From Arenibacter certesii DSM 19833 (GTDB lineage Bacteria > Bacteroidota > Bacteroidia > Flavobacteriales > Flavobacteriaceae): a DNA stretch of 64,000 nucleotides. The notes under the pieces were generated by a model. The model saw only the letters and a program-made list of their open reading frames with translations. It was not told the origin of the DNA and ran no database searches. The stretch spans positions 1-64,000 of the forward strand of contig NZ_AUCB01000016.1 in the NCBI RefSeq assembly GCF_000429545.1. Reading direction: 5' to 3'. The position numbers were made by a program, and so were the translations under genes. Each line of letters begins with the position of its first letter. The stretch's first letter is position 1. Positions 17,902 to 41,255 of the stretch are shown piece after piece.

Positions 17902-18070
17902 GCAGCGCGTTATTTATTGTCTTAACTATTTCGAAAGGACATGTGGTATATCCCAACATTTTCGGATTATCCTATCTAACTTCATTCTGGCATCTATGGT
18001 TGGCTATCTTTTATAGAATTTCGCCTAACACCAGTTTGACCTAATAGGGCAAGAACCCATTTTTATTTTG

Positions 18071-18143
18071 CACGGGCGGAGAGGCTCGAACTCCCGACAC
18101 CTGGTTTTGGAGACCAGTGCTCTACCAACTGAGCTACACCCGT
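18071..18143 (-). tRNA. tRNA-Trp (anticodon CCA)
   Basis: The minus strand folds as a complete cloverleaf. The acceptor arms ACGGGTG and CGCCCGT pair with one G-U, the anticodon arm CTGGT-CTCCAAA-ACCAG gives CCA, and the T loop is TTCGAGC. The discriminator base is G and no CCA tail is encoded. It lies between tuf and secE. Confidence 0.97.
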
Positions 18144-33625: not shown

Positions 33626-34204
33626 ATGAGAAAAATTGCATTAACATTAGTATTGGCCGTAGTTACAGGTTTCACAGCAACTGCTTCTAACCCAGTAGAA
33701 AACGATAAAAAAGAGGTGAAAGTATCAGAAAGTACCGTAACCTGGAAAGGATATAAAGTTACTGGATCACATTATGGAGTTATTGACCTAAAAGACGGTG
33801 CTTTAACTTTTAACAATGATCAACTTACCGGAGGTGAATTTGTTGTAGACATGACTACCTTGGTTTCTCATGACTTAGAAGGAGAATATAAAGGAAAATT
33901 AGAGGGACATTTAAAATCGGACGATTTCTTTGGAGTAGATAAACATGCAACCTCTAAATTAGTTTTTACAAAAGTTACTCCAACTGGAAAGAACTCCTAT
34001 GAAGTAATTGGCAACCTTACCATCAAAGGAAAAACCAACCCAATTACTTTTAACATGTCCGTATACGGGAGCAAGGCTACAGCCACATTGAAAGTAGACC
34101 GCTCTTTATATGATGTTAAATACGGATCTGGTAGTTTCTTTGATAATTTAGGAGACAAAACTATCTATGACGAATTTGATCTAGTGGTAGATCTCGTATT
34201 CTAA
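33626..34204 (+). CDS. YceI family periplasmic lipid-binding protein
   Basis: A 192-residue exported protein with a signal peptide of about 20 residues (MRKIALTLVLAVVTGFTATA). The lipocalin-like beta-barrel is recognisable from STVTWKGYKVTGSHYGVIDL, LTGGEFVVDMTTLV and SLYDVKYGSGSFFDNLGDKT. YceI proteins bind isoprenoid or fatty-acid ligands in the periplasm; the exact ligand is unknown. It closes the MarR-nitroreductase-YceI unit and is followed by an intrinsic terminator at 34224-34249. Confidence 0.93.
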   Translation: MRKIALTLVLAVVTGFTATASNPVENDKKEVKVSESTVTWKGYKVTGSHYGVIDLKDGALTFNNDQLTGGEFVVDMTTLVSHDLEGEYKGKLEGHLKSDDFFGVDKHATSKLVFTKVTPTGKNSYEVIGNLTIKGKTNPITFNMSVYGSKATATLKVDRSLYDVKYGSGSFFDNLGDKTIYDEFDLVVDLVF

Positions 34205-34223
34205 GAAAATGGTTCCATTGTTT

Positions 34224-34249
34224 AAAACCTCACATTTGTGGGGTTTTTT
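34224..34249 (+). terminator. Intrinsic terminator of the MarR-YceI unit
   Basis: AAAACCTCAC (34224-34233) pairs with GTGGGGTTTT (34238-34247) with one G-U and a 4-base loop, followed by further T. Confidence 0.85.
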
Positions 34250-34270
34250 ATTTTTTACGTAACACATCGT

Positions 34271-34300
34271 TTGTAGTTTTAAAATTCATTCCTATATTTG
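34271..34300 (+). promoter_or_regulatory. Promoter of the trp operon
   Basis: TTG (34271-34273), a 19-base spacer and TATATTTG (34293-34300) fit the Bacteroidota consensus fully. Transcription should begin close to 34307, only a few bases before the leader peptide ATG at 34309, so the leader is nearly leaderless. Confidence 0.8.
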
Positions 34301-34308
34301 GCTACACA

Positions 34309-34365
34309 ATGAAAAACTCTATATCAAATACTTGGTGGTGGATCAACTTACGAAAAACATCGTGA
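34309..34365 (+). CDS. trpL: trp operon leader peptide (WWW)
   Basis: An 18-codon frame encoding MKNSISNTWWWINLRKTS and ending in TGA. Three consecutive Trp codons (34333-34341) are improbable by chance. The gene lies between a consensus promoter and an intrinsic terminator upstream of trpE. The Trp codons, terminator and operon are seen; attenuation by ribosome stalling is inferred from the established enterobacterial mechanism. The peptide is too short for standard gene finders. Confidence 0.92.
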   Translation: MKNSISNTWWWINLRKTS

Positions 34366-34393
34366 GAAGAGCACTATTGTAGTATAACTATAT

Positions 34394-34426
34394 AAAAAGG
34401 CTTGTCATCACGACAAGCCTTTTTTT
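34394..34426 (+). terminator. Attenuator terminator before trpE
   Basis: AAAAAGGCTTGTC (34394-34406) pairs perfectly with GACAAGCCTTTTT (34412-34424) around a 5-base loop and is followed by T. Its loop and right arm contain TCACGA (34408-34413), complementary to TCGTGA (34360-34365) over the leader stop, a possible antiterminator pairing of 6 bases. Confidence 0.92.
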
Positions 34427-34481
34427 CGTTTATCAAATAAGTAAAAACACCAAGTTGTAGGAAAGAATTAAAAGATTTAAA

Positions 34482-35879
34482 ATGAAATATCCTTTAGAAT
34501 CACACCATAAGAAGATCCTTGCAGACACTATTACTCCTGTTAGTGTATATTTAAAAATAAGGGACCGATTTCCAAATAGCATTTTATTGGAAAGTAGCGA
34601 CTATCATGCTAATGATAATAGTTTCTCTTATATCTGTTGCAATCCAATTGCTTCCATTACACTGGAGAATGAGGTAATGGTGCAACAATTCCCAGATGGT
34701 ACTACAGAAGAGACCGCAGTAAACAAGGATACAGATATCCCTAACCTTCTACACCAATTTAGTCAAAGGTTCCAAACTTCTGACAACAATTTTAAGTTTA
34801 TAAATAATGGGCTTTTTGGATATATGGCGTATGATGCGGTTAGGTATTTTGAAGACATTACCATATCCAAAAAAGACAACAGCGTTGCGATCCCAGATAT
34901 CTATTATGCCGTATATAGCAATATAGTGGCCATTAACCACTTTAAAAACGAGGCCTATATTTTTGCACATTGTTACCAATCTGAAAATAACATTCCAGAG
35001 ATTGAGCAAATCCTAAGTGCTAAAAACTTTGCCTCTTATAATTTTAGTAAGAGTGGTAATCCAGTTTCTAATATAGAAGACCACGAATATAAAGAGCAAG
35101 TGACATTGGCAAAGCAACATTGCCATAGGGGAGATGTTTTTCAATTGGTATTGTCAAAGCGATTTTCTCAAGAATTTAAAGGAGACGAATTTAATGTTTA
35201 CCGAGCATTACGTTCCATAAACCCTTCGCCCTATTTGTTCTATTTTGACTATGGCGATTTTAAAATATTTGGAAGTTCGCCCGAAGCACAATTAATCGTT
35301 AAGGATGGTAAGGCCGAGATACATCCTATTGCCGGCACCTTTAAACGGACTGGAAACGACGAACAAGATGCAGAATTAGCTAAGAGATTAAAGGTAGATG
35401 ATAAGGAGAATAGTGAACATGTAATGTTAGTTGACCTTGCTAGAAACGACCTAAGTAGAAATGGAAGCATGGTAAAAGTGGAGAATTATAGGGAGGTTCA
35501 ATTTTTCTCCCACGTAATCCATCTGGTATCAAAGGTATCCGGCCAAAAGAAACCAGAGGTATCTACCATGAAAGTAGTGGCAGATACCTTTCCTGCAGGT
35601 ACCCTAAGTGGCGCTCCTAAACACATGGCCATGCAATTGATAGAAAAATATGAGAAGACCAACCGAGGCTATTATGGAGGAGCAATCGGATTTATGGACT
35701 TTAACGGCAATTTCAATCACGCTATAATGATCCGCACCTTTTTAAGCAAAAACCATCAATTACATTATCAGGCGGGAGCAGGACTGGTAGCCGCCTCGGA
35801 TCCTGAAAATGAACTACAGGAAACCTATAATAAATTAGGTGCGCTTACTAAAGCATTAGAAATAGCAGAATCCATATAA
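34482..35879 (+). CDS. trpE: Anthranilate synthase component I
   Basis: A 465-residue enzyme that makes anthranilate from chorismate and ammonia, the first committed step of Trp synthesis. The N-terminal LLES motif (FPNSILLESSDYH, about 35) binds Trp for feedback inhibition. The catalytic domain shows HPIAGTFKRTGND, LVDLARNDLSRNG, and TFPAGTLSGAPK near the C-terminal third. The length is near the lower end for TrpE. It is the first structural gene after the attenuator, starting at the ATG at 34482. Confidence 0.97.
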   Translation: MKYPLESHHKKILADTITPVSVYLKIRDRFPNSILLESSDYHANDNSFSYICCNPIASITLENEVMVQQFPDGTTEETAVNKDTDIPNLLHQFSQRFQTSDNNFKFINNGLFGYMAYDAVRYFEDITISKKDNSVAIPDIYYAVYSNIVAINHFKNEAYIFAHCYQSENNIPEIEQILSAKNFASYNFSKSGNPVSNIEDHEYKEQVTLAKQHCHRGDVFQLVLSKRFSQEFKGDEFNVYRALRSINPSPYLFYFDYGDFKIFGSSPEAQLIVKDGKAEIHPIAGTFKRTGNDEQDAELAKRLKVDDKENSEHVMLVDLARNDLSRNGSMVKVENYREVQFFSHVIHLVSKVSGQKKPEVSTMKVVADTFPAGTLSGAPKHMAMQLIEKYEKTNRGYYGGAIGFMDFNGNFNHAIMIRTFLSKNHQLHYQAGAGLVAASDPENELQETYNKLGALTKALEIAESI

Positions 35880-35955
35880 CGCCGTTGACGGAATTATATA
35901 GATCCAAAGTAGGAAGACGTAAAATCAACAAGAAATAGAACAATATTCGATACAG

Positions 35956-36570
35956 ATGGATAATAATCAACATAAAACAAAGACAAGTTCCTCTCAGGGG
36001 ACACCTAAAGGAGCCATCCTTGTCATAGATAATTACGATAGTTTTACCTATAACTTGGTACATTATCTGGAAGATTTAGACTGTGAAGTGGTTGTAAGGA
36101 GAAATGACCAAATAACCCTTGATGAAGTGGATGCCTTTGATAAAATTGTTTTATCCCCAGGTCCTGGTATACCAGATGAGGCCGGATTATTAAAAGCTAT
36201 TATTACCCAATATGCCCCAACCAAAAGTATTTTTGGTGTGTGTTTGGGGCAACAGGCCATAGCCGAGGTTTTTGGTGGTACCTTAATCAACTTAGATCAA
36301 GTATTCCATGGTGTAGCTACTAAAATTAAAGTGGTAGAAGACGATGCACTTTTTGCAGGGTTACCTAAGGAACTTGAAGTGGGCCGTTACCATTCGTGGG
36401 TGGTAGATCCGAAACTTCCAGAAGTCTTGATAGCCACCTCCTACGACGAAAACGGGCAGGTAATGTCCTTACACCATACAAGCTATGACGTGAGTGCCGT
36501 TCAATTTCATCCAGAATCGGTACTTACCCCTATGGGTAAAGAGATACTAAGAAATTGGGTCAGGAATTAG
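35956..36570 (+). CDS. trpG: Anthranilate synthase component II (glutamine amidotransferase)
   Basis: A 204-residue class I amidotransferase that supplies ammonia to TrpE. The catalytic Cys is in GVCLGQQAIAEVFGG (about 95), and the His-Glu pair lies in VQFHPESVLTPMG near the C-terminus. About 18 residues (MDNNQHKTKTSSSQG...) precede the conserved ILVIDNYDSFTYNLVHYLE; no closer ATG exists, so a disordered N-terminal extension seems real. It is followed by a heptanucleotide tandem repeat. Confidence 0.95.
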   Translation: MDNNQHKTKTSSSQGTPKGAILVIDNYDSFTYNLVHYLEDLDCEVVVRRNDQITLDEVDAFDKIVLSPGPGIPDEAGLLKAIITQYAPTKSIFGVCLGQQAIAEVFGGTLINLDQVFHGVATKIKVVEDDALFAGLPKELEVGRYHSWVVDPKLPEVLIATSYDENGQVMSLHHTSYDVSAVQFHPESVLTPMGKEILRNWVRN

Positions 36571-36580
36571 TAGGAGGTAT

Positions 36581-36636
36581 GTAGTGAGTAGTGAGTAGTG
36601 AGTAGTGAGTAGTGAGTAGTGAGTAGTGAGTAGTGA
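36581..36636 (+). repeat. Tandem heptanucleotide repeat, 8 perfect copies
   Basis: Eight consecutive perfect copies of GTAGTGA fill 56 bases in the trpG-trpD spacer. A related sequence recurs as an inverted pair in the trpF-trpB spacer. It is too short and simple to be CRISPR. Copy number probably varies by slippage. Confidence 0.97.
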
Positions 36637-36721
36637 TATTAATAAAATTTGAGGTAAATACAGGGAATAGTAACGGTTTAATCTGAATTATATATCCTGG
36701 TCCCTAAATAGTAAACATGAA

Positions 36722-37717
36722 ATGAAAGATATATTAAATAAGCTGATCAACCATGACGTACTTTCCAAAGAGGCAGCAAAACAGGTATTGGTCAACATAG
36801 CAAAAGGAGATTATAACACCAGTCAGATTGCAGCTTTCCTAACGGTATATATGATGCGAAGTGTCACCATTGAAGAATTGGAAGGATTTAGGGATGCCCT
36901 ACTAGAACTGTGTTTGGCAGTAGACCTGTCACAATACAACCCAGTGGACCTATGTGGTACTGGAGGGGATGGAAAAGACACCTTCAATATCTCTACACTT
37001 GCAAGTTTTGTAACTGCAGGAGCTGGTGTTCATGTAACAAAACATGGCAATTACGGTATTTCCTCTAAATGTGGGAGTAGTAATGTAATGGAATTTTTAG
37101 GTATTAAATTTAGTAACGACCCTGGATTCTTGGAAAAATGTTTAGCAGAAAGTGGGATTTGCGTGCTGCATGCCCCCTTATTCCACCCCGCCATGAAAAA
37201 CGTAGCCCCCATCCGGAAAGAGTTAGCAGTCAAAACTTTTTTCAATATGTTGGGCCCCATGGTTAATCCCGCTTTTCCAAAAAATCAAATGGTAGGGGTA
37301 TTCAATTTAGAACTCGCCAGAATGTACGGTTACCTTTATCAAAAGACGGACAAAAACTTCACCATATTACACGCCTTGGACGGATATGATGAAATTTCCT
37401 TGACCTGTAATACCAAGACCATTACCAATACCACTGAGACCATGCTAAAGCCTGCAGATTTTGGGGTAGATATGATCTCCCCTTCCGAAATTGTGGGTGG
37501 CGACAGCATTGAAGATTCGGCACAAGTTTTTATGGATGTACTTAGTGGCAAAGGAACCTCAGCACAGAATAATGTAGTCTGCGCCAACGCTGGCATCGCA
37601 ATTGCCACTGTGAAAAGAATTAGTCCAAAGGAAGGATTTGAGCTAGCCAAGGAATCCCTGATTAGTGGTAAAGGGCTGCAAGTACTTAAAAAACTACAAA
37701 CCCTTAGTAGTAATTAA
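36722..37717 (+). CDS. trpD: Anthranilate phosphoribosyltransferase
   Basis: A 331-residue enzyme that joins anthranilate to PRPP. The PRPP site is clear in LCGTGGDGKDTFNISTLASF (about 80) and HGNYGISSKCGSSNVMEFLG. The N-terminal helical domain reads LNKLINHDVLSKEAAKQVL. Length is standard (about 330-345). It follows the GTAGTGA repeat block by 85 bases. Confidence 0.97.
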   Translation: MKDILNKLINHDVLSKEAAKQVLVNIAKGDYNTSQIAAFLTVYMMRSVTIEELEGFRDALLELCLAVDLSQYNPVDLCGTGGDGKDTFNISTLASFVTAGAGVHVTKHGNYGISSKCGSSNVMEFLGIKFSNDPGFLEKCLAESGICVLHAPLFHPAMKNVAPIRKELAVKTFFNMLGPMVNPAFPKNQMVGVFNLELARMYGYLYQKTDKNFTILHALDGYDEISLTCNTKTITNTTETMLKPADFGVDMISPSEIVGGDSIEDSAQVFMDVLSGKGTSAQNNVVCANAGIAIATVKRISPKEGFELAKESLISGKGLQVLKKLQTLSSN

Positions 37718-37749
37718 AAAAAAATTCCTCCTTCAATTAAAATATAAAC

Positions 37750-38535
37750 ATGAACATACTGGATAAAATAGTTATAGATAAGAGAAAAGAGGTGGAACTA
37801 AAGAAATCCATTGTTCCCATATCACAGTTGGAAGCTTCCATTTTATTCGAAAAAACTACCAGTTCCCTGGTACATAAACTTAGGAATAGCAATAGTGGCA
37901 TCATTGCAGAACACAAACGAAGATCCCCGTCCAAAGCGGTAATCAATCAAAACAATAGTGTTTTCGATGTGGCCATAGGATACGAAAATGCAGGAGCTTG
38001 CGGGATGTCCGTTTTAACCGATGGTAAATATTTCGGTGGATCTATGGACGATCTTTTGCTGGCCAGGGCCTCTGTAAAATTACCATTGCTTCGCAAGGAA
38101 TTTGTTATAGATGAATATCAGATATTAGAAGCCAAGGCCTATGGTGCTGATGTTATTCTCTTGATCGCCGCTATTCTAACAAGAGCTGAGATTAAAGCCC
38201 TCTCCCAATTTGCACAAAGTCTAAAACTAGAGGTGCTATTAGAGGTGCACAATGAAGAAGAGCTACAGAAATCCAAAATGCCCAGCTTAGACCTCCTAGG
38301 GGTTAATAACAGGAATCTAAAAACATTTACGGTAAGCTTAGAAACCAGTAAAACCCTTTCTACACTTATCCCAAATGATTTTGTAAAGGTTTCCGAAAGC
38401 GGTATCAGTTCTGTAGAGGCCATAAAAGAACTTCAGCCCTATGGATTTGAAGGGTTTTTAATAGGAGAGAATTTTATGAAAACCGATAATCCTGGTGAAA
38501 GTGCATCCCAATTCATAAAACAGGTAACCTCATGA
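37750..38535 (+). CDS. trpC: Indole-3-glycerol phosphate synthase
   Basis: A 261-residue TIM-barrel enzyme forming indole-3-glycerol phosphate from CdRP. It shows IIAEHKRRSPSKAVI (catalytic Lys), SVLTDGKYFGGS, LLRKEFVIDEYQILEA, LLEVHNEEEL and GVNNRNLKTF, which are standard active-site segments. It is a single-function protein, not fused to TrpF as in enterobacteria. Its stop overlaps the trpF ATG by 4 bases (ATGA), indicating translational coupling. Confidence 0.97.
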   Translation: MNILDKIVIDKRKEVELKKSIVPISQLEASILFEKTTSSLVHKLRNSNSGIIAEHKRRSPSKAVINQNNSVFDVAIGYENAGACGMSVLTDGKYFGGSMDDLLLARASVKLPLLRKEFVIDEYQILEAKAYGADVILLIAAILTRAEIKALSQFAQSLKLEVLLEVHNEEELQKSKMPSLDLLGVNNRNLKTFTVSLETSKTLSTLIPNDFVKVSESGISSVEAIKELQPYGFEGFLIGENFMKTDNPGESASQFIKQVTS

Positions 38536-39188
38536 AACTAAAAGTGTGTGGCATGAAATACCCAGATAATATGTTGGAAGTAGCCAGCCTACAGCCGGAT
38601 TATCTTGGATTTATTTTTTGGGAACCCTCAACCCGGTTCTTTAATTCCACCCTTGCCAATATTCCAAAAAACATTAAAAAGGTAGGTGTTTTTGTGGATG
38701 CACCCGTAAAGGAAATCATAGAGAAAATAAGAAAATACAGTTTACAGGCAGTTCAGCTCCATGGGAAGGAGAGCCCTGAATTTTGCAGTGAACTGAGACA
38801 AACCTGTAAAGCAACATTAGACGACGCGGAAAAGAAACTAGAAATCATTAAAGTTTTTTCCATCAAGGATAATTTTGATTTTAGTGTATTGGAAGCCTAT
38901 GAGGAGGTGTGTGATTATTTTTTGTTCGACACCAAAGGAAAATTACCAGGTGGTAATGGTTATGCATTTAGTTGGAAAATCTTAAAAGAATACCCTTCCA
39001 AAAAGCCCTACTTTTTAAGCGGGGGAATTGGAATAGAAGAAACAGGTAAAATAATAGACTTTCTACAAAGGCCGGAATCCAAATACTGCTACGCTATAGA
39101 TGTAAACAGTAAGTTTGAAGCAGAACCGGGATTAAAAGAAGTGGAAAAATTAAAGGAATTTAAAAAAAGATTAGTGAGTATTGAGTAG
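38532..39188 (+). CDS. trpF: Phosphoribosylanthranilate isomerase
   Basis: A 218-residue TIM-barrel isomerase. The catalytic Cys is in LKVCGMKYPDNML (Cys7 by convention) and the catalytic Asp/phosphate site in FDTKGKLPGGNGYAFSW and FLSGGIGIEETGKI. The last codons (LVSIE and stop) lie inside a GAGTAGTG-type repeat whose inverted copy follows. It overlaps trpC by 4 bases. Confidence 0.95.
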   Translation: MKLKVCGMKYPDNMLEVASLQPDYLGFIFWEPSTRFFNSTLANIPKNIKKVGVFVDAPVKEIIEKIRKYSLQAVQLHGKESPEFCSELRQTCKATLDDAEKKLEIIKVFSIKDNFDFSVLEAYEEVCDYFLFDTKGKLPGGNGYAFSWKILKEYPSKKPYFLSGGIGIEETGKIIDFLQRPESKYCYAIDVNSKFEAEPGLKEVEKLKEFKKRLVSIE

Positions 39189-39232
39189 TGCCTATCGAGA
39201 TTTTCACTACTCCATACCCACTACTCAATACT
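39177..39232 (+). repeat. Inverted repeat of the GTAGTGA family
   Basis: AGTATTGAGTAGTG (39177-39190) and its exact complement CACTACTCAATACT (39219-39232) are 14-base arms around a 28-base loop. The left arm includes the trpF stop codon. Further related copies (cactact, actcaatact) stand at about 39205 and 39237. It could form a hairpin in trp mRNA between trpF and trpB. Confidence 0.85.
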
Positions 39233-39254
39233 TTGTACTCAATACTGAAAAAAC

Positions 39255-40436
39255 ATGAATTATAACGTAGACGAAAAAGGATATTACGGTGAGTTTGGTG
39301 GAGCATTTATTCCGGAGATGCTTTATCCCAATGTAGAGAATCTAAGGCAGCAGTATTTAAAGGTGATGGAAGAACCTTCCTTTAAAGCCGAGTTTGACCT
39401 ATTGCTGAAGAACTATGTAGGTAGACCTTCTCCTTTATATTTCGCTAAGCGCCTTTCGGAAAAATACAATACCAAAATATATCTAAAGCGTGAAGATCTT
39501 AACCATACCGGGGCCCATAAGGTTAACAATACCATAGGGCAGATCCTTATGGCAAAGCGACTGGGCAAGACTAGAATTATTGCAGAGACCGGTGCCGGAC
39601 AGCATGGTGTGGCCACTGCCACCGTTTGCGCCCTAATGGGAATGGAATGCATTGTTTATATGGGTGAGATTGATATTGCCCGTCAGGCTCCAAACGTGGC
39701 TAGAATGAAAATGTTGGGTGCCGAGGTACGACCTGCACTTTCTGGAAGTAGAACCTTAAAGGATGCTACCAATGAAGCAATTAGAGATTGGATCAATAAT
39801 CCTGTAGATACCCATTATATTATAGGTTCTGCCATTGGCCCCCATCCCTACCCCGATATGGTCACTAGATTCCAGTCCATTATTTCTGAAGAGATAAAGT
39901 GGCAGCTGAAGGAACAAGAAGGCAAGCAGAATCCAGATTATGTAGTGGCCTGTGTTGGTGGTGGCAGTAATGCCGCCGGAACCTTCTATCATTTCCTACA
40001 CGAAGAAGAAGTGGGGATTATTGCGGTAGAAGCTGCTGGTAAGGGAGTAGATAGTGGCGAAAGTGCTGCTACATCAGTTTTAGGGAAAGAAGGAATTATC
40101 CATGGCTGCAAAACGCTTTTAATGCAGACCCCAGATGGGCAGATTACCGAACCCTACTCTATTTCAGCTGGGTTAGATTACCCTGGTGTTGGACCAATGC
40201 ATGCCCACCTGTACAAAACGGGAAGGGCAGAATTTATTCCGGTAACCGACGATGCTGCTATGGAAGCGGGAATGGAACTATCCAAATTGGAAGGTATTAT
40301 TCCGGCTATAGAATCGTCGCACGCATTTGCCATATTAAAAACTAGAGCCTTCAAACCTAATGACGTCGTGGTAATTAACCTATCTGGCCGTGGGGATAAA
40401 GATTTAAGCACCTATATAAAATACTTTGAGCTATAA
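39255..40436 (+). CDS. trpB: Tryptophan synthase subunit beta
   Basis: A 393-residue PLP enzyme that condenses indole with serine. The Schiff-base Lys lies in [15 protein letters not shown] (about 87), with [17 protein letters not shown] and the PLP-phosphate loop [10 protein letters not shown] near 235. Length and the opening [17 protein letters not shown] are typical of TrpB1, the form partnered with TrpA. trpA follows 51 bases later. Confidence 0.98.
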
Positions 40437-40487
40437 GCAAAAGATATGATTCCCGCTTTTGTTGGGATCCCTAAACATACTTTTAGA

Positions 40488-41255
40488 ATGAACAGAATAC
40501 ATCAAAAATTACAATCGGATAAAAAATTATTCTCCATATATTTTACGGCTGGCTATCCGAATTTAAACGATACCGTTAAAATAATCCAGGCTCTGGAAAG
40601 TAATGGAGTAGATATGATAGAGATTGGGTTGCCCTTTAGCGATCCCTTAGCAGACGGTCCTACCATTCAGGCAAGCTCTACCCAAGCCTTAAAAAACGGA
40701 ATGACTACCGCCATTTTGTTTGAACAATTAAAGGATATAAGATCATCGGTAAGCATTCCCTTAGTCATTATGGGGTATTTCAACCCCATCTTACAATATG
40801 GCGTAGAAGCGTTTTGCAAAAAATGTGAGGAAGTAGGTATAGACGGACTCATTTTACCCGATTTACCACTAGATGTATATCAGGAGCGGTATGAGGCTAT
40901 TTTTAAAAAATACGGATTGATAAATATTTTCCTGATTACTCCACAAACCAGTGATGACCGTATTGCACAAATAGATGCTGCATCAGAAGGATTTATTTAC
41001 ATGGTGAGTTCTGCCAGTGTTACCGGTTCTTCAGATGGCTTTGGCACCGTTCAGGAGTCTTATTTTCAGAGAATTGAGAAGATGGGATTAAAATCGCTGC
41101 AAATCATTGGGTTTGGAATTAGTAATTCCGAGACCTTCCAGCAGGCTACTAAATGGGCAAAAGGCGCCATAATAGGATCGGCATTTATAAAATATATTAC
41201 TAAAAATGGTACTGATACGATTGGAGATTTCGTCAAGCAAATCATTAAATCATAA
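40488..41255 (+). CDS. trpA: Tryptophan synthase subunit alpha
   Basis: A 255-residue TIM-barrel lyase that releases indole into the TrpB tunnel. I start it at the ATG at 40488 (MNRIHQKLQSDKKLF); the frame is open to an earlier ATG at 40446, but its 14 extra residues (MIPAFVGIPKHTFR) are not typical. The catalytic Glu is in DMIEIGLPFSDPLADGP and the catalytic Asp in IDGLILPDLPLD. GFGISNSETFQ near the end binds phosphate. Confidence 0.95.
   Translation: MNRIHQKLQSDKKLFSIYFTAGYPNLNDTVKIIQALESNGVDMIEIGLPFSDPLADGPTIQASSTQALKNGMTTAILFEQLKDIRSSVSIPLVIMGYFNPILQYGVEAFCKKCEEVGIDGLILPDLPLDVYQERYEAIFKKYGLINIFLITPQTSDDRIAQIDAASEGFIYMVSSASVTGSSDGFGTVQESYFQRIEKMGLKSLQIIGFGISNSETFQQATKWAKGAIIGSAFIKYITKNGTDTIGDFVKQIIKS

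Follow-up and report, generated by a model that had tools for sequence, protein, structure and literature searches.

How is tryptophan biosynthesis controlled in the marine bacterium Arenibacter certesii DSM 19833? The question arises from a 64,000-nt stretch of its genome (contig NZ_AUCB01000016.1, positions 1 to 64,000, referred to as the window), in which an NCBIfam scan assigned seven ORFs on the + strand (34482..41255) to trpE, trpG, trpD, trpC, trpF, trpB, and trpA. The families for G (TIGR00566), D, C, B, and A scored over the curated cutoff, and the best families for E and F were below it. Among the best 80 of 577 relatives, the closest named TrpE is that of Arenibacter latericius, which is 95% identical. 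An earlier note on this DNA had described a consensus promoter, an 18-codon ORF with three Trp codons, and a perfect terminator ahead of trpE, whose ATG lies at 34482, and each of these parts was found where it had been placed. Together with sequence comparison and folding models, they make it very probable that the element, a member of the Rfam family RF01692, controls trpEGDCFBA by ribosome-mediated transcription attenuation.

Leader ORF and terminator upstream of trpE

The leader ORF (MKNSISNTWWWINLRKTS, 18 codons, 34309..34365, + strand) extends from the ATG at 34309 to the stop codon TGA at 34363 to 34365. Its three Trp codons (TGGTGGTGG, 34333..34341, + strand), as read from the sequence, constitute the putative stalling site. 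Among ATG ORFs of 5 to 45 codons on both strands of the 64 kb, it alone contains WWW, and each of 10 dinucleotide shuffles of the 64 kb yielded 0 WWW ORFs of that size. Downstream, an intrinsic terminator hairpin (34394..34424, + strand) comprises 13 pairs and a 5-nt loop (34407 to 34411) and is followed by T. Folding of the leader RNA gave a z value of -7.4. Two terminator-like sites, this hairpin included, were detected from 34150 to 34550, compared with a shuffle mean of 0.1, and the eight core terminator pairs were kept in 814/816 cells across 103 genus representatives.

Conservation was assessed in DNA upstream of trpE at 187 loci chosen without reference to the motif, namely, 80 named loci (the best 80 of 577 relatives) and 107 genus-level loci from 120 genomes; these 187 are not all independent, with some sequences common to both sets. 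The stretch taken per locus was 450 nt, except at L213, where the leader is located farther than 450 nt away and 680 nt were taken, and G066, with trpE at a contig end, and G079, with a partial trpE, were left out. An ATG ORF with WW was present within the stretch in 175/187 regions versus 1/187 shuffled regions. In 8 of the 12 misses, the leader is located farther upstream, behind an inserted ORF. Two others (L171 and L209, both of which match RF01692) keep the Trp run, with an in-frame TTG and no ATG. For L076, the stretch obtained was coding sequence of trpE and not the DNA ahead of it, and no leader was found upstream of trpE at L243. The earlier note had made its reading depend on conservation of the Trp codons in relatives, and the reading passed this test, with a Trp-run leader at 185/187 trpE loci in total (175, 8 farther upstream, and 2 with TTG). 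The parts of the element and their conservation are established by these comparisons.

The counts bear on the view that the leader ORF is a product of chance and that the hairpin either terminates transcription from the upstream gene (end at 34204) constitutively or serves as a general brake. By itself, the 34394 to 34424 hairpin is a good terminator. However, the other terminator-like site, at 34224 to 34247, is a separate hairpin that already follows the upstream gene, and both the rarity of WW leader ORFs in shuffled regions and the conserved Trp run argue against chance. We consider this view hardly credible.

Of the 103 modelled genus representatives, which exclude L076, L171, L209, and L243, 91 carry WWW and 12 carry WW. 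The number of codons ahead of the first W was measured in 100 of them and is eight in 83. The peptide around the run (such as NTWWW) is fairly constant among relatives. A leader that senses tryptophan without a ribosome, through a protein (TrpR or TRAP-like) or a tRNA (T-box) that binds RNA or DNA, would give no use for an in-frame Trp run after eight codons. The RNA is strongly folded, but nothing positive was found for such sensing, and neither TrpR (PF01371) nor a T-box (RF00230) had a match in the organism's own genome. We regard it as very improbable. A tRNA-Trp gene (anticodon CCA) is located in the window at 18070 to 18143 on the - strand, ~16 kb away from the attenuator by which its charging would be sensed.

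At the eight loci with a displaced leader (L097, L126, L133, L145, L149, L154, L156, and L162), the leader lies 490 to 578 nt before trpE. An ORF of ~95 codons, with palindromes such as TTTCCGCGAAGGCGGAAA beside it, separates the attenuator from trpE. We take this ORF to resemble a GIY-YIG nuclease, and the arrangement suggests a mobile unit that was inserted under Trp control.

Promoter and predicted 5' end of the leader RNA

A -33 element (TTTG, 34270..34273, + strand) and a -7 element of the form TAnnTTTG (TATATTTG, 34293..34300, + strand), separated by 19 nt, were read from the sequence ahead of the leader ORF. The commonest spacings from TTG to the box among genus representatives were 19 (n = 54) and 20 (n = 26), and TAnnTTTG was found 20 to 80 nt 5' of the first Trp codon in 101/103 representatives versus 294/5150 shuffles. 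A sigma-70 promoter scan of 34150 to 34550 returned no site on the + strand. The promoter of the trp leader is of the Bacteroidota type.

According to the accessible part of PMC9723704, TAnnTTTG sits at -12 to -5 in F. psychrophilum promoters. Because of this placement, transcription is predicted to start near 34305, which would leave a 5'UTR of ~4 nt (34305..34308, + strand). The earlier note had called the ORF nearly leaderless; the 5'UTR predicted from the -7 box is indeed short, at ~4 nt, but not zero. Distances from the box to the first in-frame ATG, which are start predictions made from the position of the -7 box, were 8 nt or less in 40, 9 to 13 nt in 19, and at least 14 nt in 41 of the 100 measurable genus representatives; two of those 40 have a gap of 0 or 2 nt, too short for the predicted start.

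If transcription starts ~4 nt before the leader ATG, the ribosome has to be loaded almost at the 5' terminus of the RNA. A near-leaderless trp leader has precedent, since the S. meliloti trpL transcript begins at the ATG, as given in the accessible text of PMC7298713. Leaderless mRNAs account for 5.5% in F. psychrophilum, and the phylum Bacteroidota is said to be without Shine-Dalgarno sequences (both from PMC9723704). In B. thetaiotaomicron, 5'UTRs of <10 nt account for about 3.7%. The trp leader would constitute a natural test of ribosome start on near-leaderless RNA, because attenuation demands prompt ribosome loading on nascent RNA.

Predicted antiterminator pairing and three-state folding

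A 6-base complement between the stop region of the leader and the terminator had been proposed in the earlier note as a possible antiterminator. This complement, TCGTGA (34360 to 34365) with TCACGA (34408 to 34413), is exact and forms the core of a longer antiterminator helix. In the stalled-ribosome model, 34360 to 34375 forms 14 pairs with 34398 to 34413 as part of a fold of -16.2 kcal/mol. The helix takes the terminator 5' arm from 34398, the loop, and two 3'-arm bases, and the terminator 5' arm and loop make up most of its 3' strand. The core of its 5' strand (region 2, 34360..34375, + strand) overlaps the leader stop codon. In the ribosome-free fold, an upstream segment, CTTACGA (region 1b, 34347..34353, + strand), pairs with 34360 to 34366.

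TCGTGA was present in 148/175 leaders, and in 140/148 the last Trp codon lies 18 to 19 nt before its start. Relative to the stop codon, its offset in the 148 leaders was -3 in 103, -8 in 23, and +6 in 12, with 10 others; one genus reads TCG TGA where another reads TTC GTG AAC TAA. Because the distance from the core to the Trp codons is fixed while the offset to the stop varies, the constraint is on the RNA and not on the peptide.

Within the family, the columns of region 2 and its partner strand (2:3) were paired in 582/612 cells (shuffle maximum, 577; slid partners, 4 to 52%). Most 2:3 pairs hardly vary, and two-sided changes amounted to 8 cells spread over 4 pairs (shuffle mean, 0.7; maximum, 3). 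A control slid by -2 gave 15 two-sided cells, with only 196/567 of its cells paired. Region 1b was paired in 409/715 cells, above the shuffles (maximum, 380) but no better than with its partner slid by -3 (392/694). Clear individual cases were provided by L223 (TCGCAAT with ATTGCGA), L236 (GGATTCAG with CTGAATCC), and L239 (GCGAG with CTCGC). L237, which matches RF01692 but was modelled with the wrong hairpin, was kept in the column, spacing, folding, and shuffle counts. A simpler test of each leader against its own mononucleotide shuffles was weak, with 95/175 at ≤0.05 and a median of 0.04.

Column counts from MAFFT under-report covariation, because divergent leaders (L229, L236, and L238 to L242) are shifted by a few columns, and an alignment-free swap test was therefore performed, in which the complementarity of a leader with its own terminator is scored against that with the terminators of other leaders. 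The class set consisted of 217 genomes and 68 trpE upstream regions (29 + 39 loci). A WW ORF was present in 49/68 regions, 5 of the 49 belonging to the same family as the window, and was not found within the stretch taken in 19/68. L261 and L280, with WW ORFs but without a convincing terminator nearby, were excluded, which left 42 class leaders; with the window leader, 43 were tested, in 22 family groups. Own pairs scored 724, compared with 555 (sd, 19) for permuted pairs, and 0/5000 permutations scored as high. With one leader per family, 0/1000 were as high in each of 20 draws. The leader strand of the pairing starts 11 to 21 nt after the Trp run in 36/43 own pairs (permuted mean, 19.6; maximum, 31; 0/5000 as many). 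Several groups pair GAACAGC with GCTGTTC, on the 5' arm and loop, and other groups use the loop and 3' arm. Own pairing was poor for four leaders outside the family (L268, L270, L282, and L296), and therefore not every leader is explained.

Pairing is thus partner specific across families, and this, together with the fixed position, supports the 6-base complement as an antiterminator. A conserved Trp-run leader, a positioned antiterminator, and partner-specific pairing are best read as peptide-based transcription attenuation, as the earlier note had held. At four loci in two other family groups (L291, L300, L305, and L306), the leader is located ~1.4 kb upstream of trpE, with room for a gene between.

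Folding was modelled for the 103 representatives with nascent RNA that extended five bases into the terminator 3' arm, and the antiterminator was scored as present when at least 6 bases of the terminator 5'-arm end, loop, and 3'-arm start were paired upstream. When a ribosome occupied the last Trp codon, it was present in 103/103, by a lax criterion that dinucleotide-shuffled leaders also reach in 1233/4120 (30%). With a ribosome at the stop it was present in 1/103, and with no ribosome, in 23/103, where the loop region is also paired upstream. The stalled result of 103/103 held at footprints of 6, 9, 12, and 15 nt. Shuffled leaders were as stable as the real ones in 223/4120, and in 3/103 the stalled fold was no more stable than the shuffle mean. 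For the ribosome-free window leader, 1b:2 forms and the terminator wins in the fold. Computation yields three states, in which the antiterminator would exclude the terminator and is predicted to form only with a ribosome stalled at the Trp codons. The full terminator fold reached -21.0 to -24.5 kcal/mol, compared with -16.2 kcal/mol before completion. Since the terminator is favored once complete, switching has to be under kinetic control, as it is in E. coli trp attenuation.

We infer the following course of translation, stalling, timing, and tryptophan effect. When charged tRNA-Trp is plentiful, the ribosome would reach TGA and cover TCGTGA, and the terminator would form. When it is scarce, the ribosome would stall on the Trp codons and cover region 1b, leaving region 2 free to pair with the terminator 5' arm and loop (34398 to 34413). 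This pairing would precede completion of the 3' arm, and the polymerase would continue into trpE. If no ribosome is present, 1b:2 pairing would let the terminator win.

Relation to RF01692 and to other attenuators

The window element is a member of RF01692 (Bacteroid-trp) and is not new as a kind. A search against Rfam release 15 matched 34289..34406 on the + strand with 61.8 bits (gathering cutoff, 49; model positions 1 to 131 of 131). The alignment covered the model over its full length, eight positions being flagged as outside standard pairs, and the free fold has a stem in the same place as the RF01692 consensus stem. Matches at E ≤ 0.001 were obtained in 178/249 same-family genomes and in 42/395 of a phylum sample. 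The match spans the -7 box and upstream DNA, probably untranscribed, and ends in the terminator 5' arm. The element has in common with RF01692 its position before trp genes, a Trp-coding leader, a structured stem, and a conserved terminator 5' arm; unlike the window element, the model as matched shows no antiterminator. With the antiterminator, a listed Rfam family becomes a testable switch with named bases.

In holding that the locus, if confirmed, would be a first record in Bacteroidota, the earlier note went too far. Going by the accessible portions of these papers, RF01692 was listed in Table 1 of Weinberg et al. in 2010 (PMC2864571), a 2019 paper located it ahead of the trp operon of F. 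psychrophilum and compared it to E. coli trp attenuation (PMC6414381), and clues for leader peptide attenuation were described before amino-acid operons of F. psychrophilum (PMC9723704). In the portions available of the literature on the family, we found no antiterminator, spacing rule, or near-leaderless start for RF01692. Lopatovskaya et al. 2010 reportedly covered Bacteroidetes, and parts of this analysis may therefore already be in print.

At the gathering cutoff, RF01692 matched 4/42 class leaders and missed 38/42, and the analysis points to Bacteroidia trp leaders beyond the present reach of Rfam. There is, in our estimation, an even chance that the class Bacteroidia has a single old system of Trp attenuation, for the most part unannotated, with ribosome loading at the very RNA 5' end. 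Selection would hold a ruler (~8 codons, the Trp run, and ~11 to 21 nt to the antiterminator strand), and the pairing sequences would drift freely and even shift from the terminator 3' side to the 5' side. RF01692 would then be only the flavobacterial, sequence-conserved branch.

The E. coli trp attenuator resembles the Arenibacter element in its Trp codons, three mutually exclusive states, and an antiterminator made from the terminator 5' arm. Unlike in E. coli, the Arenibacter leader is predicted to have almost no 5'UTR, its antiterminator strand overlaps the leader stop codon, and its most conserved core pairs the loop and the first 3'-arm bases.

S. meliloti trpL/rnTrpL, from a different phylum, is similar in that its transcript starts from the ATG, compared with a predicted ~4 nt before the ATG here. 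There trpE(G) alone is attenuated, whereas in Arenibacter seven genes form one operon (S. meliloti data from the accessible text of PMC7298713). By analogy with S. meliloti peTrpL/rnTrpL in the same text, either the leader peptide or the short RNA left by termination might act in trans in addition to, and not instead of, attenuation. The start of the S. meliloti trpL transcript at the ATG and the attenuated RNA expected here, which would be discrete at ~120 nt, are consistent with such action, but the C-terminal part of the leader peptide is in different reading frames among relatives. One conserved peptide function is disfavored because of these frames, and we think trans action unlikely.

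For other amino acids, structured 5' elements at pheA and hisG of F. psychrophilum were stated to be without Rfam hits in the accessible part of PMC9723704. Two further sites were observed in the A. certesii genome. Upstream of hisG (L312, contig C22), a leader, MKNNRKHHHHFYTFVQAS, contains four His codons, 7 nt separate its ATG from a preceding TACTTTTG box, and a hairpin resembling a terminator was seen by eye before hisG; this layout is the same near-leaderless arrangement, for histidine. Upstream of a prephenate dehydratase gene (L313, contig C18), a possible leader, MTKQYFWNGFYFYFFFQRGMGLF, is rich in Phe and Tyr and is followed by a terminator-like hairpin, likewise seen by eye.
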